The notes under the pieces were generated by a model. That model was not told where the DNA came from. It worked only from the letters and a program-made list of their open reading frames with translations, and made no database searches. A stretch of 13,925 nucleotides of DNA from Elusimicrobiota bacterium. Its GTDB lineage: Bacteria; CAYTYR01; UBA6262; DAOVJB01. The DNA lies in contig DAOVJB010000013.1 in assembly GCA_030673425.1 (NCBI GenBank), positions 1-13,925 on the forward strand, in the 5' to 3' direction. The position numbers and the translations under genes were made by a program. Within the stretch, counting starts at the first letter, position 1, and the number at the start of each line of letters is the position of its first letter. Positions 2,165-12,862 of this stretch are shown here, piece after piece.

Positions 2165-2193
2165 TTGACAAACAGTAAAATCAGTGCTATACT
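2165..2193 (+). promoter_or_regulatory. sigma70-type promoter P1 with extended -10
   Basis: TTGACA (2165-2170) and TATACT (2188-2193) are separated by 17 bases, with TG one base upstream of the -10. Transcription would start near 2200, just before the riboswitch aptamer. The spacer is nearly identical to that of the promoter at 6168. Confidence 0.8.
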
Positions 2194-2210
2194 TATTATA
2201 AGAGTAACTT

Positions 2211-2294
2211 ACAATTCCGAAAAGGCAAATTCGTTGTGAGACGGAGGCGCAAAGCTACGGGTCTTAAGAAGAGATAGCCGGGCGTACCGATAAC
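2211..2294 (+). promoter_or_regulatory. cyclic-di-GMP-I (GEMM-I) riboswitch aptamer, copy 1 (divergent)
   Basis: Core blocks of the GEMM-I class are present in order: GGCAAA (2224-2229), GCGCAAAGCTACGG (2247-2260), ATAGCCGGG (2274-2282) and ACCGA (2286-2290). Between the first two is a stem, 2230-2235 with 2240-2245, capped by GUGA, a GNRA tetraloop. Its sequence is quite different from the GAAA-capped stems of copies 2 and 3, but the structure is kept. GNRA docking into the neighbouring helix is a known feature of this class. The second helix is less regular than in copies 2 and 3. The element lies between a promoter and an intrinsic terminator in the leader of the first large GH113 gene. 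Confidence 0.8.
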
Positions 2295-2318
2295 AAGATA
2301 AAAATTAAGATGGCCGAG

Positions 2319-2366
2319 TTGCCGAGAATACAAATAATTATTCTCGTTATACTCGGCAATTTTTTT
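2319..2366 (+). terminator. Intrinsic terminator of riboswitch 1 expression platform
   Basis: TTGCCGAG (2319-2326) pairs perfectly with CTCGGCAA (2352-2359), followed by seven T (2360-2366). An alternative register uses GCCGAGT (2313-2319), because GCCGAG occurs twice. The left arm could instead pair with the aptamer: 2316-2323 with 2224-2232, 8 bp with one bulged A. That would be an antiterminator, though this is weaker than in copies 2 and 3. The U tract ends about 30 bases before the start codon. Confidence 0.75.
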
Positions 2367-2395
2367 ATGAAATAGATGAAATTTCAGGAGGGAGA

Positions 2396-5116
2396 ATGGT
2401 AATGATTAGAAAAAAGATTTATTCAGCGTTAATATTGAGTTTGTGTGTTCTTTTATTTACAGGTAGTCATGCTGTTGCAGATACCGGGACGGCAATTCCC
2501 AATGCACTGAGTGGCGGGGATTATTCTGAGAGTTATCTTGAAGATGTAAAATTTGATGATGCCACCGGTAACGCCAATTTCAGTAAAACTAATGGCGACG
2601 GCTGGTATGATGTAGATAAACTTGACCAGATATATATAGAGAGTTTTGATATAAGTGGACTTTCAGGAGTACCTATAGGTGTAACCTTAGAAATACAATA
2701 TTCAGTAGAATCGGGCTATAGTGGACCCTATCCAATAAAATGGGCATTAGATGGGGGAACATTAGCTTCTACAGGAATTATTCCAGTAGATGGTGAAATA
2801 AATGTAATTAAAACTTTTGATTTGTTTACTCAGGGCGTAGATACACTGGCAGAAATATCTACTCTGGATATACAATTTAAGAACGAAGATGCTAAGGGTC
2901 CAGACGCGGTAGCCTTTGATTATGTTCATGTTAATATTCAAACATCAGGTGGAGGGGATACTACTCCGCCAGCTCCACCAAGTGATGTTTCGGTTACTGA
3001 CCCGGCTGTTGGCGGGCAGCTCGATTTATCATGGACCAATCCGGTAGATTCTGATTTTGACCATATCCATATTTATCGGTCCAATACTGCAGGGATTATT
3101 GGATCGTTAGTACATGATAATGTTGTAGGAATGAGTCTTAGTGATACAGGTTTAACCAACGGGCAGACTTATTACTATACTTTAAGAAGTGTAGATACAT
3201 CAAGTAACGAATCAACCAATACTGATCAATATAATGGTACTCCTACTGATGTTGTTCCACCTGCTCAGGTAACTGGATTAACAGTAACTGATCCTGGTAC
3301 TGATGGTCAGTTAGACCTTAGCTGGACTGCTAATGGCGAATTAGACCTTGCAGGATATAGGATATACCGTTCTAATATTAGTGGAGAAACGGGCTCTTTG
3401 ATTGATTCTGTTTCGGTTAATAGCTATACTGATACAGGACTTACTAACGGGACAACTTATTATTACCAGGTTAGTGCTTATGATGATTCGCTTAATGAGG
3501 GGGCATTGTCAATTCAGGAAACAGGTATTCCCACTAATGCTCCAGTACAAAATTTTAGTATCAAGGGAGTTGAGTATGTATCTTGGTGGAATGGCCAATA
3601 TTCCTCTTCAGATTCTGATATCTCTCTTGATAATATAAAAAATACCAATGCTAATAATGTAGGATTATTGGTAACCTGGTATATGGACACCGGTACCTCA
3701 AACACTATTTATAGTGATGCTGATAAGACACCAACCGATGCAGATGTGGTAAATGCAATAGGTGATATTCACAGCAGGGGGATGGAGGTAATGCTTAAAC
3801 CCCATGTTGATTCTAAAGACGGCACATGGAGAGGAGAGATTGCTCCTTCAGATATAACTGCCTGGTTTAATAGTTATAACAATTTTATTACACATTATGC
3901 ACAGATTGCCCAGGATAACGGTGTGGAATATTTATGTATAGCTACAGAATTGAAGAGTTTATCCGGAACTACTTATGAATCTAGTTGGAATACAATTATA
4001 GATAATATTGAAGTTATCTATACCGATTCTTTAACTTATGCATCTAACTGGGATGAATATACAAATGTATCTTTCTGGAACAGATTGGATTACGGAGGAT
4101 TAGATGCTTACTTCCCATTAAGCGAGGCTCAAAATCCTTCTGTAACGGAGTTGATAGATGGGTGGAGTAATTATAGTGGAACTTGGGGAACTCACAACTG
4201 GGTAGCTGAGATTGAAGCATGGCAGGCTATCATAAATAAACCCATAATCTTTACAGAGATAGGATATAGAAGCATTGATTATGCGGCTAAAGAGCCATGG
4301 GCATGGGGGACATCTGCTACGTATAACGGTCAACTGCAGGCGAATTGTTACCAAGCTGCTATTGAAGTATTTAAGGAAAAAACATGGTTTACTGGTATGT
4401 ACTGGTGGGATTGGTTAACTAATCCTAATGCAGGAGGAGAAGGAAATACTGATTTTATGCCGCAGAATAAACCAGCGGAAGCTACTTTGACTGCTCTTTA
4501 TGGAGGAGGAGAAATTAATAATCCACCTAATATACCCACTCAGCCTTCAGGAGCTACTTTGGGTAATGCTGGAACATCTTATAGTTATTCAACCTCAACT
4601 ACTGATCCTGACGGGAATCAGGTAAGCTATGTTTTTGACTGGGGAGATGGAACTACCACCACTACCGGATATGTTGATTCCGGAGTTGTGGTTAGTGCGT
4701 CTCATACATGGAGTAAACAAGGAGTATATACTATAGTAGTAAAGGCTATAGATGTCAAAGGAGCAGAATCAGATTACAGTGAAGGATTAAAACTGAGAAT
4801 GGCACGTCCAAGTAATGCTTTATTTGAAGAAGAAGTTTATCAAGATCTTAGTCAGATGCGAGTATATCCAAATCCATGGAAATCTACCAGTGGCAGTGGT
4901 GGAATAACATTTGATCAACTTTCTGAAGATGTGGATATAGCAATTTATAATATAGCCGGGGAGTTAATCTATGAGGAAAAAGATAACTCAGATGGTTCAA
5001 TAATATGGAAGCTTAAAAATAATAGAGGTGATTCCATAGCCAGTGGTATATATATCTATTTGCTTAAGGATGAAAACGGAAGTAAAAAATCAGGGAAGTT
5101 AGCAGTAATAAAATAA
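2396..5116 (+). CDS. Secreted multidomain GH113 mannanase-like enzyme with T9SS-type C-terminal domain (module 1)
   Basis: This 906-residue exoenzyme has a signal peptide (about 1-29), an N-terminal beta-rich domain of unknown type (about 30-182), two FnIII domains (about 190-283 and 286-382), a GH113-like catalytic barrel (about 389-702), a PKD-like domain (about 708-800, with FDWGDG) and a C-terminal sorting-like domain (about 820-906). The barrel keeps both catalytic glutamates of a retaining mannanase: Glu518 in ATELKSL (acid/base) and Glu621 in FTEIGYRS (nucleophile). It also has HVDSKDGTWRGEI and YASNWDEY. The last domain opens with VYPNPW and ends GKLAVIK, the pattern of the T9SS type A sorting / FlgD-Ig-like domain. 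A PorV-like gene follows 61 bases later, consistent with T9SS export. AGGAGG at 2386-2391 serves either the ATG at 2396 or the one at 2402. Expression is expected to be under the upstream c-di-GMP riboswitch. Mannan as substrate is inferred from the family. Confidence 0.88.
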   Translation: MVMIRKKIYSALILSLCVLLFTGSHAVADTGTAIPNALSGGDYSESYLEDVKFDDATGNANFSKTNGDGWYDVDKLDQIYIESFDISGLSGVPIGVTLEIQYSVESGYSGPYPIKWALDGGTLASTGIIPVDGEINVIKTFDLFTQGVDTLAEISTLDIQFKNEDAKGPDAVAFDYVHVNIQTSGGGDTTPPAPPSDVSVTDPAVGGQLDLSWTNPVDSDFDHIHIYRSNTAGIIGSLVHDNVVGMSLSDTGLTNGQTYYYTLRSVDTSSNESTNTDQYNGTPTDVVPPAQVTGLTVTDPGTDGQLDLSWTANGELDLAGYRIYRSNISGETGSLIDSVSVNSYTDTGLTNGTTYYYQVSAYDDSLNEGALSIQETGIPTNAPVQNFSIKGVEYVSWWNGQYSSSDSDISLDNIKNTNANNVGLLVTWYMDTGTSNTIYSDADKTPTDADVVNAIGDIHSRGMEVMLKPHVDSKDGTWRGEIAPSDITAWFNSYNNFITHYAQIAQDNGVEYLCIATELKSLSGTTYESSWNTIIDNIEVIYTDSLTYASNWDEYTNVSFWNRLDYGGLDAYFPLSEAQNPSVTELIDGWSNYSGTWGTHNWVAEIEAWQAIINKPIIFTEIGYRSIDYAAKEPWAWGTSATYNGQLQANCYQAAIEVFKEKTWFTGMYWWDWLTNPNAGGEGNTDFMPQNKPAEATLTALYGGGEINNPPNIPTQPSGATLGNAGTSYSYSTSTTDPDGNQVSYVFDWGDGTTTTTGYVDSGVVVSASHTWSKQGVYTIVVKAIDVKGAESDYSEGLKLRMARPSNALFEEEVYQDLSQMRVYPNPWKSTSGSGGITFDQLSEDVDIAIYNIAGELIYEEKDNSDGSIIWKLKNNRGDSIASGIYIYLLKDENGSKKSGKLAVIK

Positions 5117-5177
5117 TAATTATTGAAGAAATGTGAAAAATGGAGTATAATAAAAATAGATGAGGAGTGTGAATTAT

Positions 5178-6140
5178 ATGAAAAATAAACAAAACCTAAT
5201 GACAATCCTGGTATCAAGCTTAATCTTCTGTAGCATCTGTTTTCTGGGAGCAGGTGTTTCTCATGCTGAAGAAAGCGGTGCGGCATTTCTTAAGATAGGC
5301 GTTGGAGCCCGTCCGATAGGTATGGGAAGTGCATTCGTAGCAGTGGCTGACGATGCTACAGCCGTATTCTGGAATCCGGCAGGGTTATCTCAGTTAAAGA
5401 CTCAGCAGATAAACGCTATGCATACGGAATGGATTTCAGATATTAATTATGATTATATTGGTTATGTCAACCCCATAGGTAAAAATGCAATAGGAATAAG
5501 TGTCGTTTATCTATCCACAGGAGATATAGAGAAAAGGGGAGCCAGTGGTGAGGATTTAGGGAATTTTACAGCTTATGACGCTTGTGCTACGATATCGTAT
5601 GCTCGCCAATTAAGTTCCATAGTAGGCTTGGGTATAAATTTAAAGGTAATCCAGCAGAAGATAGAAAATGAGACAGCAAATGGTATAGCAATAGATATAG
5701 GGCAGATGTATAAATTACCTGTAACGGGCATAAGTTTAGGGATAGCCGTTCAGAATATAGGACCCAAAATGAAGTTCATAGAAGAGGAATACTCATTACC
5801 TTTAACCGTTTCAATAGGAACAGCTTACAGGATACTCGGGTTATTGAATCTTGGGTTGGATGTAAAACATCAGGTAATAGACGACAGAACAAGTATAAGT
5901 TTCGGCATGGAATACCTGCCGGTAAGTGTTTTAACCTTGCGTGCCGGATATTTAATGGGTTTATTGAAATTAGAGAAAGAAACAGGACAGGTGGCCGGTG
6001 TGTATACTGATTTTAAGGAATTAACAGGGGTAGGTGCAGGGTTAGGATTCAATTTAGGGATTACAGCTGTTGATTATGCCTTTGTTCCTTACGGTGATTT
6101 AGGGAATACCCACAGAATTTCGTTATTGGTTAAATTTTAA
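5178..6140 (+). CDS. PorV/PorQ-family outer-membrane beta-barrel protein (module 1)
   Basis: The N-terminus of this 320-residue protein is a signal peptide with likely cleavage after SHA (residue 30). The mature start, AAFLKIGVGARPIGMGSAF followed by VAVADDATAVFWNPAGLS, is the hallmark of the PorV/PorQ family. The body alternates short beta-strand-like segments and ends in a terminal Phe (LLVKF), as outer-membrane barrels do. In T9SS, PorV binds the C-terminal domain of cargo and carries it to the PorU sortase attachment complex. Here the gene lies directly behind a cargo-like gene carrying such a domain and shares its transcript, with no promoter or terminator seen between them. I chose ATG 5178 because TGAGGAG (5161-5167) lies about 10 bases upstream. 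An in-frame ATG at 5160 would place that Shine-Dalgarno inside the gene. Other barrel functions, such as an FadL-like porin, cannot be excluded. Confidence 0.85.
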   Translation: MKNKQNLMTILVSSLIFCSICFLGAGVSHAEESGAAFLKIGVGARPIGMGSAFVAVADDATAVFWNPAGLSQLKTQQINAMHTEWISDINYDYIGYVNPIGKNAIGISVVYLSTGDIEKRGASGEDLGNFTAYDACATISYARQLSSIVGLGINLKVIQQKIENETANGIAIDIGQMYKLPVTGISLGIAVQNIGPKMKFIEEEYSLPLTVSIGTAYRILGLLNLGLDVKHQVIDDRTSISFGMEYLPVSVLTLRAGYLMGLLKLEKETGQVAGVYTDFKELTGVGAGLGFNLGITAVDYAFVPYGDLGNTHRISLLVKF

Positions 6141-6167
6141 TAAATTTTGTTTTTTTTGATGGACCCC

Positions 6168-6196
6168 TTGACAAACAGCAAAATCAGTGCTATACT
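6168..6196 (+). promoter_or_regulatory. sigma70-type promoter P2 with extended -10
   Basis: TTGACA (6168-6173) and TATACT (6191-6196) are 17 bases apart, with TG before the -10. From 6164 to 6196 it differs from promoter P1 (2161-2193) at a single base, spacer included. Transcription would start near 6203, about 40 bases before the aptamer. Confidence 0.82.
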
Positions 6197-6240
6197 CACT
6201 TATGGTGAAGATGAAAGGTATTGTTGAAAATTAAATAGAC

Positions 6241-6325
6241 TTGATCCGATAAAGGCAAACCATTCCGAAAGGGTGGGACGCAAAGCTACGGGGCTAAAGA
6301 TAGCCAGCCGGGTTGCCGAAGATTA
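6241..6325 (+). promoter_or_regulatory. cyclic-di-GMP-I (GEMM-I) riboswitch aptamer, copy 2
   Basis: This is a near-textbook GEMM-I element. GGCAAA (6254-6259) is followed by a hairpin (6260-6276) capped by a GAAA tetraloop (6267-6270), then GACGCAAAGCTACGGGGC, a short GGCTA/TAGCC helix with AAGA loop, and CCGGGTTGCCGA (6308-6319). It lies between promoter P2 and an intrinsic terminator in the leader of the second large GH113 gene. GATAGCC (6299-6305), in the 3' half of the aptamer, can pair with GGCTGTC (6361-6367) in the terminator's left arm, so aptamer folding and antitermination should exclude one another. Confidence 0.92.
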
Positions 6326-6356
6326 AAAGAGTAATAATTATTGCTCATCCATGCTT

Positions 6357-6396
6357 GCCGGGCTGTCGGAGGAAAGATAGCGCGGCTTTTCATTTT
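6357..6396 (+). terminator. Intrinsic terminator of riboswitch 2 expression platform
   Basis: GCCGGGCTGTC (6357-6367) pairs with GATAGCGCGGC (6376-6386), 11 positions with one G-G mismatch and one G-U pair, over an 8-base loop. TTTTCATTTT follows. The start codon lies 24 bases further on, so this hairpin decides whether the gene is transcribed. Confidence 0.82.
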
Positions 6397-6420
6397 GCAA
6401 CTAAAGCAGGGGTGGGCAAG

Positions 6421-8931
6421 ATGATTAAGAACAAAATTGCTACAACAATTATTTTTATGATGTTTTTCCCGGTGTTCGTAAGAGCGGCACAGGATTCAAG
6501 TGCGGTTTTCAAGAATTTATGTAATTTTGAAGACGGGATAACACAGAGCTGGGTAAATGATACCAGTGACTATTTTGGCGATAACCTGGGAATTCCCTCA
6601 ATTTCCTCTCTTTATGCTAATGACGGCAACAATTCTCTTGCTTTTCCCCTTGATTTAGATTCAAAAGATTCCCGGTATAATTATATTCATGATGCTGCAT
6701 ATGTAACTCCTGAGAATAGAAATTTCTCCAGTTATTCAGATTTAAGGCTCTATGTTTATCTGCCTCTTGATGCAGGCATTACTTCTTCAAAACCTCTTTA
6801 TAGCACTCTTTATATAAAAACTGGTTCAAGCTGGGCGTGGTTTGAGAGCGAGACGTTCAATAAGCTTGCTTTAGGAGAATGGACTGAGGTCAGTCTGGAC
6901 TTATCCAGTGCAAAAGACTCAGGGGGAACAATAGGTGAGGTTAGAGATTTAGATAATGTCAAAGAATTAGGAATTCATATTTTTGGTGCTTCTGATAGTA
7001 GTGGCACCACTTTTTTATATATTGATTCTGTACAGGCAGGAACTCTTGAACACGTTGATGTTCCACATCAGGTGAGGGGATTGAAAGTCACAAGTCCCGG
7101 GGTAGGAAGCAGACTTAATATAACCTGGGATAAAAATAATGATCCGGACTTGGCCGGGTATTATGTATACAGGAACATCAGTTACGGTGATATCGGAATA
7201 TTGGTGGGTGACAGGAGTACAAACAATTACATTGATAAGAATGTAACAGATGAGGTTACTTATTATTACCAGGTTAGTGCTTACGATATTTATGGTAATG
7301 AAGGGGATTTATCGCTGCAGGTTTCTAATACTTCCACAACAGATGAAAATAATATATTTGTTATGGAAGGAATGAGTTATGCCGCGTGGTGGAATAATAG
7401 TTATGAGTCAAGTAATTCTGATAACTCCATTTCAGAATTGAGTAATACAGGAGCGAATTTTGTGGCTTTAATTGTGACTCAATATATAGATTCAGGAAGT
7501 TCCAATATTATTTATGCGGATTCTAATAAAACACCTACTGATGATTCAGTCATTCGTGCTATCAATGCAATTCACAGTTCAGGGATGAACGTGATGCTCA
7601 AGCCGCATGTAGATTGTAAAGACGGGACGTTCAGGGGTGAGATTGCGCCTGGCAATAAAACAGAATGGTTTAGCAGCTATAATGATTTTATTGGCCACTA
7701 TGCACAATTAGCTGAGGATAACGGGGTGGAATTGTTAAGTTTAGGCTGCGAGTTAAAAAGTCTCTCAGGTGAATATTACCTTGATGATTGGACCCATGTA
7801 ATTTCTAATGTTGAAAATATATACAGCGGGAGTCTGACTTATGCGGCTAATTGGAATGAATATAAAAGCGTGAGTTTCTGGAGCTATTTGGATTATGCAG
7901 GAATAGACGCATATTTTCCTTTAAGTGATGAACAGAATCCTTCAGTTGAAGAGTTAATTAACGGATGGTCTGGGTACGAAGGTATTTACGGGATACATAA
8001 CTGGGTAGCGGAGATTGAAAACTGGCAGGCACAGATTGAAAAGCCTTTAATTTTTACTGAGATCGGTTACAGAAGTATGGATTATACTGCCAGGGCCCCA
8101 TGGTCATGGCAGGATACCGCCGGTTCCTATAACGAAACTCTTCAAGCCTCCTGTTATGAGGCCGCGATGAGTACTTTTAAGGATAAGGACTGGTTCATCG
8201 GGATGTTCTGGTGGTGTTGGTTAACCGACCCTTATTCAGGCGGGACAGGAGATACGGATTATACTCCTCAGAATAAAACAGCTCAGGAAGTGCTTACTGA
8301 CTGGTATACCAGACAGAAAAGTCCGAACAGTGCTCCGCAGCAGCCGGATGAACTTTCAGGACCGTATTGCGGAATTACCGGTACTTATTACAGATATTCA
8401 GCTAAGGCTGTTGATCCTGACGGAGATAGGATTAAATATGTCTTTGACTGGGGAGATGGGATGAGTGAGGATACTGACTATGTTGATTCAGGAACAGAAA
8501 TAGGGCTTGTTCACAGATGGGACGAAGAAGGTAAGTTTAATGTGAGAGTTAAAGTGATAGATGATGGAGAAACCTCCTCAGGTTGGAGTGAGGTTCTTGA
8601 GGTTAAAATAACAGAGTTTTCTCCTACTAATCCTGAAGAGCAGATACCAGTCGATTTCTCCAATGCAAACATTTATCCCAATCCATGGAAGATAAACAAT
8701 GCTTCCGGGGCCAGCGGTATAAAGTTTGATAATCTTACTAAAAACGCTGATTTAGCAATCTACAATATTGTCGGAGAATTAATATACAAAAAAGAAAATA
8801 TAGAAGAAGATTCCACCACCTGGGAATTAAGGAATAGTAATGGGGAATCAGTAGTCAGCGGCGTCTATGTATATTTACTCCTCGACGATAAAGGTAATAA
8901 AAAGATTGGTAAGGTAGCGGTGATAAAATAA
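6421..8931 (+). CDS. Secreted multidomain GH113 mannanase-like enzyme with CBM-like N-terminus and T9SS-type C-terminal domain (module 2)
   Basis: This 836-residue exoenzyme has a signal peptide (about 1-22), a beta-sandwich domain (about 30-205), one FnIII domain (about 212-305), a GH113-like barrel (about 312-630), a PKD-like domain (about 640-732, with FDWGDG) and a C-terminal sorting-like domain (about 748-836). The N-terminal domain opens NFEDG and contains FSSYSDLRLYVYLP, WAWFESE and GEWTEVSLDLSS, the look of a carbohydrate-binding module, perhaps a mannan binder of CBM27 type; this is unverified. Catalytic glutamates are Glu444 (GCELKSL) and Glu547 (FTEIGYRS). The last domain runs from IYPNPW to GKVAVIK. 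The barrel closely resembles the module 1 enzyme, but this gene has one FnIII instead of two and an unrelated-looking N-terminal domain. AGGGGTG (6408-6414) is 6 bases before ATG 6421. Upstream in-frame starts would begin inside the riboswitch. No PorV gene follows; it presumably shares one of the two neighbours. Confidence 0.88.
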   Translation: MIKNKIATTIIFMMFFPVFVRAAQDSSAVFKNLCNFEDGITQSWVNDTSDYFGDNLGIPSISSLYANDGNNSLAFPLDLDSKDSRYNYIHDAAYVTPENRNFSSYSDLRLYVYLPLDAGITSSKPLYSTLYIKTGSSWAWFESETFNKLALGEWTEVSLDLSSAKDSGGTIGEVRDLDNVKELGIHIFGASDSSGTTFLYIDSVQAGTLEHVDVPHQVRGLKVTSPGVGSRLNITWDKNNDPDLAGYYVYRNISYGDIGILVGDRSTNNYIDKNVTDEVTYYYQVSAYDIYGNEGDLSLQVSNTSTTDENNIFVMEGMSYAAWWNNSYESSNSDNSISELSNTGANFVALIVTQYIDSGSSNIIYADSNKTPTDDSVIRAINAIHSSGMNVMLKPHVDCKDGTFRGEIAPGNKTEWFSSYNDFIGHYAQLAEDNGVELLSLGCELKSLSGEYYLDDWTHVISNVENIYSGSLTYAANWNEYKSVSFWSYLDYAGIDAYFPLSDEQNPSVEELINGWSGYEGIYGIHNWVAEIENWQAQIEKPLIFTEIGYRSMDYTARAPWSWQDTAGSYNETLQASCYEAAMSTFKDKDWFIGMFWWCWLTDPYSGGTGDTDYTPQNKTAQEVLTDWYTRQKSPNSAPQQPDELSGPYCGITGTYYRYSAKAVDPDGDRIKYVFDWGDGMSEDTDYVDSGTEIGLVHRWDEEGKFNVRVKVIDDGETSSGWSEVLEVKITEFSPTNPEEQIPVDFSNANIYPNPWKINNASGASGIKFDNLTKNADLAIYNIVGELIYKKENIEEDSTTWELRNSNGESVVSGVYVYLLLDDKGNKKIGKVAVIK

Positions 8932-8977
8932 TAAAAAAGGGCTTAAAATATCGTCTATAAAAAAGTTTCCAGAGCCC

Positions 8978-9005
8978 TTGACAAGTCGTCAAATCGTGCT
9001 ATACT
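8978..9005 (+). promoter_or_regulatory. sigma70-type promoter P3 with extended -10
   Basis: TTGACA (8978-8983) and TATACT (9000-9005) are 16 bases apart, again with TG one base before the -10. It resembles P1 and P2 but its spacer has diverged. It begins 46 bases after the preceding stop codon, with no convincing terminator between them. Confidence 0.75.
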
Positions 9006-9050
9006 TATAGTGGATAAGGAAAGAACCGAGTTTTTTGAAAATCAAATAGT

Positions 9051-9137
9051 TTCGATCCGATAAAGGCAAACCACACCGAAAGGGTGGGACGCAAAGCTAC
9101 GGGGCTAAAGATAGCCAGCCGGGTTACCGAAGATTGG
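9051..9137 (+). promoter_or_regulatory. cyclic-di-GMP-I (GEMM-I) riboswitch aptamer, copy 3
   Basis: It is almost identical to copy 2 from the CGATCCGATAAAGGCAAACC-like 5' side onward. It has a hairpin with GAAA tetraloop (9071-9087), then GACGCAAAGCTACGGGGC, the GGCTA/TAGCC helix and CCGGGTTACCGA. A T-to-C change in the first stem turns the G-U pair of copy 2 into G-C, which fits selection on structure. GATAGC (9110-9115) can pair with GCTGTC (9172-9177) of the terminator's left arm. The element controls the subtilase-PorV transcript. Confidence 0.92.
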
Positions 9138-9166
9138 AGAAAGATGTTTATTGTTCATCCATGCTA

Positions 9167-9206
9167 GCCGAGCTGTCGGAAATAAGATAGCTCGGCTTTT
9201 CATTTT
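9167..9206 (+). terminator. Intrinsic terminator of riboswitch 3 expression platform
   Basis: GCCGAGCTGTC (9167-9177) pairs with GATAGCTCGGC (9186-9196) over all 11 positions, including one G-U pair, with an 8-base loop, followed by TTTTCATTTT. Where copy 2 has a G-G mismatch this copy has A-U, so the helix is intact here. It ends 24 bases before the start codon. Confidence 0.85.
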
Positions 9207-9230
9207 GCAGAGATAGCAGGGGTGAGCAAA

Positions 9231-11846
9231 ATGACAGCACTAAAAAACATCTTAATAATAAGTATATTAATAAATGGACTAACCATTGTCTATCCTCTCA
9301 ACACGGAGGGGATAGAGGGGCGCATAGGGGTTCATTCTTCCGTCTTCCCAGCCAGTGATGGTCAGGGTCTGCATCGTGGAACAAATTCGGATGACGAGCA
9401 GGAACGGTGGAATGAACCTCGTTTTGTTTCAGGGGAGTTGCTGATAAAATTTAAGAACGAACCTCTGGGCAATAGGCCTTTCAATATGCCTCCTATTAAA
9501 AGATTAAATGACCGTTTCGGTATGGTAAAAATAGAGAAAATCTTCCCGTCAGCTAATTTACCGCCTGATATTTCTTATCAAAGGTCACCTGTTGGTTATC
9601 AGATATCCGCAAATGAACTTTCACGCTGGTATAAAGTAATCCTTCCTGATGGTGTTGATATCAGCAGTTTGATAGAGGAATATCAAAACAATCCTGAAAT
9701 AGAGTTTGTTGAACCAAATTATATGTATAAGATTGCGGCTGTTCCCAATGATAGTTATCACAATTCTGAGGGAACATGGGGACAGTCTTACCAGGATTTA
9801 TGGGGTTTGTATAAGATTTATGCAGAGGACGGCTGGGATATTGAGACAGGTTCTGATGAGGTTGTTGTAGCAGTAGTCGATACCGGACTTGATTCCGGTC
9901 ACCAGGATATAGTGAGTAATCTCTGGGTTAATGAGGATGAAATCCCCGGCAATTATATAGATGACGACGGGAACGGATATGTTGATGATATTAATGGCTG
10001 GAACTTTGTAGGGGTGTCCGGAAACCTTAAGGACGGGCATGGTCACGGGACACATGTTGCAGGGATAATTGCCGCTACCGGCAATAACGGTATTGGAATT
10101 AGCGGTCTATCCTGGAACTCCAGGGTTATGGCATTAAAAAGCCTCAATGATGATGGATATGGAATTACAGGAGATTTAGCCAAGGGCATAAGATATGCTG
10201 TTGATAACGGTGCCAGGGTAATTAATATGAGCTGGGGAGGAAGAGCAGTATCGCAATTGATTACCGATGCCCTGGATTATGCTTACGGCAAGGGATGTGT
10301 TCTGATAATTGCTGCCGGTAATTCTAACTCGGATGCTAGTGAATTTTTCCCGGCTAACTATAATAACGCAATAACTGTAGCTGCGACTGACTCACTAGAT
10401 GTGAAAGCTTCCTTCTCTAATTATGGGAGTGTAGTTGATGTTTGTGCTCCGGGAGTTGATATACTGAGTCTGCGAGCCGAAGATACAGATATGTACAAAG
10501 ATAACGCACATACAGTAGGTTATTATTATTACAGAGCCAGTGGAACGAGTATGGCCACGCCTTATGTTAGCGGTCTTGCTGCACTTATCCTTTCAAGAAA
10601 TCCGGACTTCTCCCATGATGAGGTAACCCTGGCGATAATTTATTCAACCGATGACTTAGGAATTGAGGGTAAGGATATTGATTATGGTCATGGGAGAATA
10701 AATGTGTATAAAGCATTAGAGACTGCTGATGGTAACCTCCCTGCAGTCGGGAAGATTGGCGCAGTTGATACTCCTGCTGACAGCGGGCATAGTATAACAC
10801 TTTTCTGGAATAACAGCGGCATTACTGATGAGGTTAAAGGATATAGAATATATTACAGCAGGCAGCCTTTTAAGAGTATTAATGATGAAGATGTTAGTTA
10901 TTTTGACGCTTCTCCAAATGAGCGTAATGATGTTACTTCCTGTGTCGTTACAGGTTTAGGTGATGAAAATTATCCTTATTATTTTGCGGTTATTGCCAAT
11001 ATGTTTGATATCCAGCCTCCTACGGGAGAAAGGACCAGAACATCCAGTTCTTCTTCTAATTATATCTCCACCATCCAGGCAGTTTATCCGGTAGATAATG
11101 TTGTGGATACCACCGTGAGCGATGATGTCATTATTGCCGGAGGAGATCCATACACAAAGGTTGTCATACCACAGGGGACTAATAACGGGAAGATATTAGA
11201 TATTACGCTTCCTGAGAGAGACGACCTCTATCTTACTACAGGAAGTTCCAAGAGTAATGAAAAAAGTGATGGTTTAAATTATTTGGATCCTGAAGCATTA
11301 GAGATGACTACAAGAGAGTTTAAGTCTTCCGAAGCGATAGAAGGAAAAGTAAGAATTGTTATTTCGTATCCTTCCGAAGCTCCTGCTTCATATGAAGATG
11401 ACCTGAGGATATATAAATTGGATGAGTTCTCAGGTGAATGGGAAATACTGCCGGGTATACAGAGTGTAAATACGACCCAGGGAATAGTAACAGCTGAAGC
11501 TGAAGGGTCAGATTGGTATAGAGGCACTACGTATAGATTGTTTGTGTCACTCTATTCCTCGGAAAATCTCAACGAGGCCATAGTATATCCTAATCCTTAC
11601 AAACCAAACAGTGGACTGGGGCATACCAATATTATTTTTGATAATTTAACCGAGAATGCAAAAATCAGAGTATTTAACATAGCAGGTGAATTGGTGAGAA
11701 CAATGACCGAAGATGATACTGATGGAAGGTATGAATGGAATGCTACGAATGACGGTAACGAAAGATTGGCAAGCGGCGTTTACATTTATCTTATAACCGA
11801 TAATAGCGGGCATAAGAAAACAGGTAAACTTGCCGTTATAAGATAA
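9231..11846 (+). CDS. Secreted subtilisin-like serine protease (S8) with T9SS-type C-terminal domain (module 3)
   Basis: This 871-residue protein has a signal peptide (about 1-25), an inhibitor-like propeptide (about 64-168, from RFVSGELLIKFK to EFVEPNY), a subtilase catalytic domain (about 185-500), an FnIII-like domain (about 505-605), a further beta-rich region (about 610-775) and a C-terminal sorting-like domain (about 780-871, VYPNPY to GKLAVIR). The catalytic triad is complete: Asp217 in AVVDTGLD, His272 in GHGTHVAG and Ser440 in GTSMATP, with Asn364 in AAGNS as oxyanion residue. It is expected to be an active endopeptidase exported as a zymogen and displayed or released at the surface. 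AGGGGTG (9218-9224) lies 6 bases before ATG 9231; a GTG at 9222 falls inside this Shine-Dalgarno and is less likely. A PorV-like gene follows 50 bases later. The propeptide and C-terminal domains indicate secretion rather than a cytoplasmic role. Confidence 0.92.
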   Translation: MTALKNILIISILINGLTIVYPLNTEGIEGRIGVHSSVFPASDGQGLHRGTNSDDEQERWNEPRFVSGELLIKFKNEPLGNRPFNMPPIKRLNDRFGMVKIEKIFPSANLPPDISYQRSPVGYQISANELSRWYKVILPDGVDISSLIEEYQNNPEIEFVEPNYMYKIAAVPNDSYHNSEGTWGQSYQDLWGLYKIYAEDGWDIETGSDEVVVAVVDTGLDSGHQDIVSNLWVNEDEIPGNYIDDDGNGYVDDINGWNFVGVSGNLKDGHGHGTHVAGIIAATGNNGIGISGLSWNSRVMALKSLNDDGYGITGDLAKGIRYAVDNGARVINMSWGGRAVSQLITDALDYAYGKGCVLIIAAGNSNSDASEFFPANYNNAITVAATDSLDVKASFSNYGSVVDVCAPGVDILSLRAEDTDMYKDNAHTVGYYYYRASGTSMATPYVSGLAALILSRNPDFSHDEVTLAIIYSTDDLGIEGKDIDYGHGRINVYKALETADGNLPAVGKIGAVDTPADSGHSITLFWNNSGITDEVKGYRIYYSRQPFKSINDEDVSYFDASPNERNDVTSCVVTGLGDENYPYYFAVIANMFDIQPPTGERTRTSSSSSNYISTIQAVYPVDNVVDTTVSDDVIIAGGDPYTKVVIPQGTNNGKILDITLPERDDLYLTTGSSKSNEKSDGLNYLDPEALEMTTREFKSSEAIEGKVRIVISYPSEAPASYEDDLRIYKLDEFSGEWEILPGIQSVNTTQGIVTAEAEGSDWYRGTTYRLFVSLYSSENLNEAIVYPNPYKPNSGLGHTNIIFDNLTENAKIRVFNIAGELVRTMTEDDTDGRYEWNATNDGNERLASGVYIYLITDNSGHKKTGKLAVIR

Positions 11847-11896
11847 GCATAGTGTAAGGTGTGAGGCTCAAGAGGAAAAGAAAAGGAGAGATAGAA

Positions 11897-12862
11897 ATGA
11901 AAGTTATCACTCCGGGAATCAGAAAACAAGTTAAGGCAAATAAGAAAGGGTATAGGTTTTTAAGTATTATATTACTCCTTTTTGCTTTACACTTTACACT
12001 TCCTGCTGTTTTTGCTGCTGGTATAGGAACTACTGGAGCCCAGTTCCTCAAGATAGGGGTTGGTGCCCGTCCAGTAGGGATGGGAAGTAGTTTTGTTGCC
12101 GTGGCTGATGATGTAAATACCGCCTATTGGAATCCGAGCGGGTTCAGCCAGATTAAAGGAACTGAGCTTACCACGATGTATTTGAGCTGGTTTGAAGGGA
12201 TTGATTACGGATATGTAGGATATGCTCAATCCTGTGGGGAGGGGATAGGATTCGGGGGAGCTTTGACATATTTAACTACAGGGGATATTCCGCAGACCAA
12301 TCTTGTAGGAGATAACACGGGAGCTTATAGCGGAGAGGATATTGCATTTATTCTATCCGGGGCCAAGGCTATCAATGAAAAGATTTCATTAGGAAGCAAT
12401 ATAAAGATAATACAGGAGAAAATTGAATCAGAGGTTGCCAACGGATATGCTTTTGATATAGGAGGATTATATAAGATTAACCAGGATACAAAATTAGGTG
12501 TAGTTGTTCAAAATATTGGTTCAAAAATAAAGTTTGTTTCTGAATCGGATGCTTTGCCGTTGAATTGGAAGATAGGGGCATCCCATAAACTGTTAAATAA
12601 TAGTCTAATTTTAGCTTTAGATATAAATTTCCCGATAGATAACAATGTAACCGAACACATAGGAGCTGAATATTTAATAGGAGATGCGATTGCTTTAAGG
12701 TTAGGATATAAAACAGATACAGTTTCATATTTAGGTGGTGAATCAGGCCTGTCCGGTGGTATAGGAGTTGAATTTGCCGGGTGGTATAGCATAGATTACG
12801 CATGGGTGCCTTACGGGGATTTAGGCCAGACTCACAGGTTTTCTCTGTTGATGAGATTCTGA
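11897..12862 (+). CDS. PorV/PorQ-family outer-membrane beta-barrel protein (module 3)
   Basis: This 321-residue protein has a long basic N-terminus, a hydrophobic signal segment (about 22-40, cleavage after VFA) and a mature start with AQFLKIGVGARPVGMGSSF and VAVADDVNTAYWNPSG, the PorV/PorQ family pattern. It resembles the module 1 copy along its length, down to YGDLGQTHRFSLLMRF with a terminal Phe, but is clearly diverged. The likely role is that of T9SS PorV: holding the C-terminal domain of secreted cargo at the outer membrane, here probably that of the subtilase encoded just upstream on the same transcript. AGGAGAG (11884-11890) is 6 bases before ATG 11897; a GTG at 11861 would start upstream of that Shine-Dalgarno and is rejected. 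Two PorV-like genes within 7 kb suggest cargo-specific shuttles or simple duplication. Confidence 0.85.
   Translation: MKVITPGIRKQVKANKKGYRFLSIILLLFALHFTLPAVFAAGIGTTGAQFLKIGVGARPVGMGSSFVAVADDVNTAYWNPSGFSQIKGTELTTMYLSWFEGIDYGYVGYAQSCGEGIGFGGALTYLTTGDIPQTNLVGDNTGAYSGEDIAFILSGAKAINEKISLGSNIKIIQEKIESEVANGYAFDIGGLYKINQDTKLGVVVQNIGSKIKFVSESDALPLNWKIGASHKLLNNSLILALDINFPIDNNVTEHIGAEYLIGDAIALRLGYKTDTVSYLGGESGLSGGIGVEFAGWYSIDYAWVPYGDLGQTHRFSLLMRF

Follow-up and report, generated by a model that had tools for sequence, protein, structure and literature searches.

Putative c-di-GMP-I riboswitches in front of operons for T9SS-type exoenzymes and PorV-family proteins in an Elusimicrobiota genome

Riboswitches of the c-di-GMP-I class (GEMM-I), which respond to the second messenger cyclic di-GMP (c-di-GMP), are known from genes for motility, pili, adhesins and similar functions. 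In Clostridioides difficile the secreted protease zmpI/PPEP-1 is under an OFF switch of class I, and its adhesin targets, the surface proteins CD2831 and CD3246, are under ON switches of class II (PMC6366702). Genes of the type IX secretion system (T9SS) have been described, in a 2024 paper, as confined to the Fibrobacteres-Chlorobi-Bacteroidetes (FCB) phyla (PMC11285876). Here we analyse a window of 13,925 bases, an entire contig of the draft genome of an Elusimicrobiota bacterium (1.32 Mb, 199 contigs, 88% complete), in which three adjacent leaders precede genes for secreted enzymes with a T9SS-type C-terminal domain (CTD) and for PorV-family proteins. Judging from the sequence, these leaders probably are c-di-GMP-I riboswitches that control the CTD-exoenzyme and PorV-family operons via transcription termination. 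The RNA itself belongs to a riboswitch class already described, and its T9SS-type cargo and PorV target appears to be undescribed: no account of riboswitch control of T9SS-type cargo or of PorV was found in a literature search that reached few subscription papers and is weak evidence of novelty.

The leaders, at positions 2165-2396, 6168-6421 and 8978-9222 of the forward strand (as are all window features below), each consist of a promoter, a c-di-GMP-I aptamer and an intrinsic terminator, as a first-pass annotation of the window had proposed. The promoters at 2165-2193 and 6168-6196 (both TTGACA-N17-TATACT) and at 8978-9005 (TTGACA-N16-TATACT) have an extended -10 element and are the only ones in the window that combine 11/12 matches with a TG before the -10; all three lie directly upstream of aptamers. 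Aptamer 1 (2215-2327), which has an insertion in the P3 loop, matches RF03167 with 60.2 bits (E 2.2e-12) and RF01051 with 60.7 bits. Aptamers 2 (6245-6321) and 3 (9056-9132) reach 66.6 bits (E 3.3e-14) and 64.2 bits (E 1.6e-13) in the Rfam cmscan, and 71.1 and 71.0 bits with RF01051. All three exceed the Rfam gathering score for families of the c-di-GMP-I clan. Across 21 aptamers of the bacterial class, 13 of 20 pairs in P2 and P3 are changed on both sides, and the alignment has a covariation score of 0.425, where shuffles give 0.152 and slid partners 0.03-0.17; RNAalifold on a MAFFT alignment recovered P2 alone, and the Rfam structure was therefore mapped by hand. Positions 20, 47 and 92, in what we take to be the numbering of the Vc2 structure, are G, A and C in all three window aptamers, as in canonical c-di-GMP-I. 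The best Rfam label, "-GGC", is ruled out as a ligand variant because position 47 is A, and by these residues it mirrors overall similarity, not the ligand site. A tenth GEMM match in the genome (contig C172, 31 bits) is sub-threshold, lies within an open reading frame and was treated as false. We regard the RNA part of the reading, namely that all three leaders are true riboswitches of the c-di-GMP-I class, as well supported by these comparisons.

Leader 1 leads into a gene for a predicted secreted GH113 enzyme (beta-mannanase family; 2396-5116; GH113 188.5 bits, TIGR04183 36.1 bits) with fn3, PKD and C-terminal sorting domains, followed by a gene for a PorV/PorQ-family outer-membrane protein (5160-6140; NF033709 208.5 bits, cut-off 90), the profile of which matches PorV in the SprA-PorV structure 6h3i. 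Leader 2 precedes a GH113 paralogue (6421-8931; GH113 199.5 bits, TIGR04183 25.4 bits) with a mannanase GBD, PKD and a C-terminal sorting domain. Leader 3 precedes an S8 subtilase, likewise predicted to be secreted and ending in a sorting domain (9222-11846; Peptidase_S8 196.8 bits, TIGR04183 33.7 bits), and a further PorV/PorQ-family gene (11897-12862; NF033709 204.5 bits). The GH113, S8, NF033709 (PorV_fam) and TIGR04183 scores of the window proteins all exceed their cut-offs, in agreement with the earlier description of two GH113 enzymes and a subtilase with sorting-like C-termini and of two operons with a PorV-family gene; both PorV genes fall short of the stricter PorV equivalog NF033710. 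Model matches place the enzymes of leaders 1 and 2 in GH113, and the two CTD proteins share 53% identity across 630 amino acids. The C-terminal domains had been called nearly the same; they are homologous, and with 52% (second protein) and 47% (third) identity to the first they are not near-identical.

The arrangement recurs in the rest of the genome, which holds nine good c-di-GMP-I aptamers, two of them cut by contig ends. Outside the window, aptamers are found ahead of an operon of a PorV/PorP-OmpA fusion and GH113, a gene whose surface-protein product exceeds 1,283 amino acids, an HD-GYP-type gene with a PilZ gene, and an MshEN gene. A search for further units of aptamer, cargo and PorV, as suggested by the first-pass annotation, has turned up more of them, both here (the PorV/PorP-OmpA and GH113 operon) and in relatives. 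The idea of a switch dedicated to cargo is contradicted by the aptamers before the HD-GYP, PilZ and MshEN genes; from its targets, the switch appears to govern c-di-GMP metabolism as well, and possibly pili. MshEN is a known c-di-GMP-binding domain. At locus L012:2416-4598 (-), with the aptamer at 4636-4746, the HD-GYP-type protein is followed by the PilZ protein and the terminator overlaps the aptamer; feedback on c-di-GMP itself is possible. At L016:3-585 (-) the MshEN-domain gene lies 3' of the aptamer, and relatives have similar MshEN-like genes a short way 5' of aptamers (L046, L048, L051, L053).

In all four genomes of the same class that were compared (G001-G004), two tandem aptamer-terminator units stand upstream of an orthologous subtilase gene, with PorV 3' of that gene; the contig of G004 stops before that point. 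The window subtilase is 44% identical to the aptamer-led subtilase of G001, and the PorV of the third operon is 39-40% identical to the PorV of the same operon in the relatives. A single aptamer precedes a CTD and PorV operon in G001, G002 and G004; the contig of G003 ends early there. When PorV-bearing loci of named genomes were scanned, five further genomes proved to have PorV or CTD operons led by an aptamer; each of these genomes holds 6-20 aptamers.

The machinery by which such cargo might leave the cell is represented by a Sov/SprA homologue on contig C123, which is cut by the contig end, scores 222.5 bits with TIGR04189 (equivalog cut-off 200) and matches the solved SprA structure. Searched family by family, the genome yields 12 PorV-family and 10 TIGR04183 matches. 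SprA/Sov homologues at L064:97-4583 and L067:1444-6594 belong to an Elusimicrobia-like lineage, and PMC11285876 does not list this group among the phyla with a T9SS. On the side of the signal, a GGDEF protein whose GGEEF motif is intact is a candidate diguanylate cyclase, and an HD-domain protein with an HD-GYP-like motif lies behind an aptamer; by these proteins, the genome should be able to make and degrade c-di-GMP. Two proteins of the response-regulator-GAF-GGDEF type, one with GGEEF (L065:2130-3557) and one with a degenerate QGGCF (L066:1954-3387 (-)), both have N in the G-D-x-x-L stretch. Canonical cyclases usually have D there, and the N might affect the choice of base. The first-pass annotation had regarded two outcomes as damaging, a lack of GEMM matches and a genome with neither a cyclase nor a T9SS core; the matches are significant, and diguanylate cyclases and SprA are present.

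Each of the three window leaders folds into a strong hairpin on its 3' side. In leader 1 the 5' arm of the terminator (2313-2366; helix GCCGAGU:ACUCGGC, p 0.99) coincides with the aptamer's 3' strand (2313-2319), so that aptamer and terminator are mutually exclusive and leader 1 is predicted to be built as an ON switch. This overlap recurs in the majority of the genome's remaining leaders and in the single-copy leaders of relatives (about ten others in the class). In leaders 2 and 3 and in eight tandem copies of relatives the terminator is separate and lies ~25-50 bases 3' of the aptamer. Terminator 2 (6357-6396) contains TGTCGGA (6364-6370), which can pair with the aptamer 5' strand TCCGATA (6245-6251) as an antiterminator (p 0.98 in nascent RNA, i.e., the transcript ending before the terminator 3' arm); a simple terminator scan missed this hairpin, probably owing to a mismatch, and it folds nonetheless. 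Terminator 3 (9166-9206), with a 12-base-pair (bp) helix and a U tract, contains TCGGA (9176-9180), complementary to TCCGA (9056-9060) in the aptamer 5' strand. The P1 5' strand UCCGA pairs with UCGGA on the terminator 5' side in the nascent RNA of all ten separate-terminator leaders (mean p 0.90-0.98). Enforcing P1, which mimics the ligand, costs 6-14 kcal/mol in this nascent RNA, and in full-length RNA with P1 enforced the terminator has p 0.65-1.0. The first-pass annotation treated the three modules as alike; this holds for the aptamer class and fails for the platforms, leader 1 being predicted ON and leaders 2 and 3 probably OFF. From the folds we somewhat favour leaders 2 and 3 as OFF switches with an antiterminator formed via the P1 5' strand. 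The opposite predicted polarity of leaders 1 and 2 would sit on GH113 paralogues that are 53% identical, and one signal might therefore swap them.

Several of our results weigh against this reading, and three alternatives have to be considered. All three switches may be of one polarity, all ON or all OFF, in which case the split would be an artefact of secondary-structure prediction. Terminators 2 and 3 indeed win in full-length RNA whether or not P1 is enforced, and they beat the antiterminator by 6.0 and 10.6 kcal/mol (free-energy difference), so that switching would need to be kinetic. The window antiterminators measure 5-7 bp and score like 10-11% of shuffles (fraction about 0.1; 0.11 for leader 2), which is not significant alone, and the functional class I switches of C. 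difficile are all OFF (PMC6200980). Against a single polarity stand the two terminator designs, one sharing a strand with the aptamer (leader 1 and about ten other leaders of the class) and one separate from it (leaders 2 and 3 as well as the eight tandem copies). Likewise, relatives have kept the antiterminator, and theirs is longer, with 8 bp in the first tandem copies (AUAUCCGA:UCGGAUAU) and 7-10 bp in the second (GAUCCGA:UCGGAUC and longer); these helices exceed shuffles (fraction 0.006 or less), and between first and second copies a U-A pair is exchanged for G-C. We interpret this pattern as favouring opposite polarities, and consider a single polarity a serious contender of lower probability.

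The aptamers may also sense another ligand, e.g., 3',3'-cyclic GMP-AMP (3',3'-cGAMP), since c-AMP-GMP variants of this riboswitch class exist (PMC7266159) and some aptamers on PorV/CTD operons of relatives have A, the cGAMP-type letter, or C at position 20. The canonical G20, A47 and C92 of all three window aptamers stand against this, and we consider it very improbable that they respond to anything other than c-di-GMP. The C is found in the first tandem aptamer of all four relatives (L045:8522-8613(-), L047:9249-9341(-), L050:4466-4560(-), L054:1708-1802(+)), which may mark a variant in ligand or a sensor that has degenerated. An A was observed in PorV/CTD-operon aptamers of other lineages (L102:9747-9825, L178:265-346, L203:6807-6888(-), L188:125-244); A20 is the letter tied to cGAMP sensing in Geobacter. 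As regards export, there may be no secretion system at all, in which case the CTD would be a generic Ig fold like that of FlgD, and the PorV-like proteins would be FadL-like porins. The window CTDs do match FlgD_ig weakly, as the window PorV does a FadL-type model. A search for the C25 (PorU) peptidase gave no match in five genomes, with no good positive control, and GldM/PorM gave none in five genomes, with no proper positive control; in a direct search the PorU model matches through its C-terminal region alone. The export route is therefore uncertain, and we call the system, as far as its genes go, T9SS-like and not a proven T9SS. On the other hand, TIGR04183 and NF033709 exceed curated cut-offs, PorV lies directly 3' of a CTD gene in many operons, and the SprA equivalog is above its cut-off in the same genome, which makes the lack of any secretion system unlikely. 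Of the T9SS core genes that the first-pass annotation had proposed to look for, the SprA-type translocon is found, and the five-genome search, with no good positive control, gave no C25 PorU; the link of c-di-GMP to secreted cargo stands in so far as the genome shows it more than once and relatives share it, with its T9SS identity weakened to T9SS-like. The strength of this link was counted in ten genomes that are partly related, five of them picked for having a match: among the matches listed, PorV/CTD lies within 3 kb downstream of 22 of 73 aptamers on the same strand and of none (0/73) on the opposite strand, and upstream of six on the same and three on the opposite strand. If the sites of the window (three) and those that had prompted the choice of the further genomes (five) are set aside, 15 of 65 aptamers have a downstream PorV/CTD among the matches listed; as several sites are orthologous and not independent, the count is indicative.

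If c-di-GMP-I control of these operons is accepted, GGDEF and HD-GYP enzymes would set the c-di-GMP level, the aptamer would bind c-di-GMP, and a terminator or an antiterminator would form in response. The GH113-PorV operon of leader 1 would be switched on, and the GH113 paralogue of leader 2 and the subtilase-PorV operon of leader 3 more likely off, so that the export of mannan-degrading enzymes and protease via a SprA/PorV-type route would change. The region 5' of leader 1 (1-2143) holds the end of a gene for a mannosidase/glucosaminidase-type protein and a GH113 gene that lacks the sorting domain, a content that suggests a cluster for beta-mannan degradation. It is conceivable, though we place this a little below even, that in several uncultured Elusimicrobia-like lineages outside the recognised T9SS phyla c-di-GMP riboswitches are a main controller of a reduced SprA/PorV route, in which paralogous cargo genes have platforms of opposite sign, ON and OFF, and one signal swaps the exported enzymes. 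If so, bacteria that have so far resisted cultivation would link a second messenger directly, with no regulatory protein in between, to which degradative enzymes they secrete and which outer-membrane carriers they use. This would extend the target range of c-di-GMP riboswitches and provide a handle on the regulation of T9SS-like cargo outside Bacteroidota. The prediction of opposite polarity on the GH113 paralogues is directly testable in vitro with synthetic DNA.

Compared with the Bacteroidota T9SS of Porphyromonas gingivalis and Flavobacterium johnsoniae, the system shares TIGR04183 C-terminal domains, the PorV family and a SprA/Sov translocon; it differs in that neither C25 PorU nor GldM/PorM was detected in the five genomes searched, and no riboswitch regulation of a T9SS was found described. 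The RNAs agree with c-di-GMP-I (RF01051/RF03167) in aptamer structure, ligand residues, terminator-based platforms and the occurrence of tandem copies, and differ in their targets, which here are T9SS-type CTD cargo and PorV. The zmpI/PPEP-1 system of C. difficile resembles the arrangement proposed here in that c-di-GMP riboswitches control a secreted protease with one polarity and other surface proteins with the opposite one (PMC6366702). There, two riboswitch classes serve a Gram-positive sortase surface, whereas here a single class would act through two platform designs, with the outer-membrane carrier encoded in the same operon.

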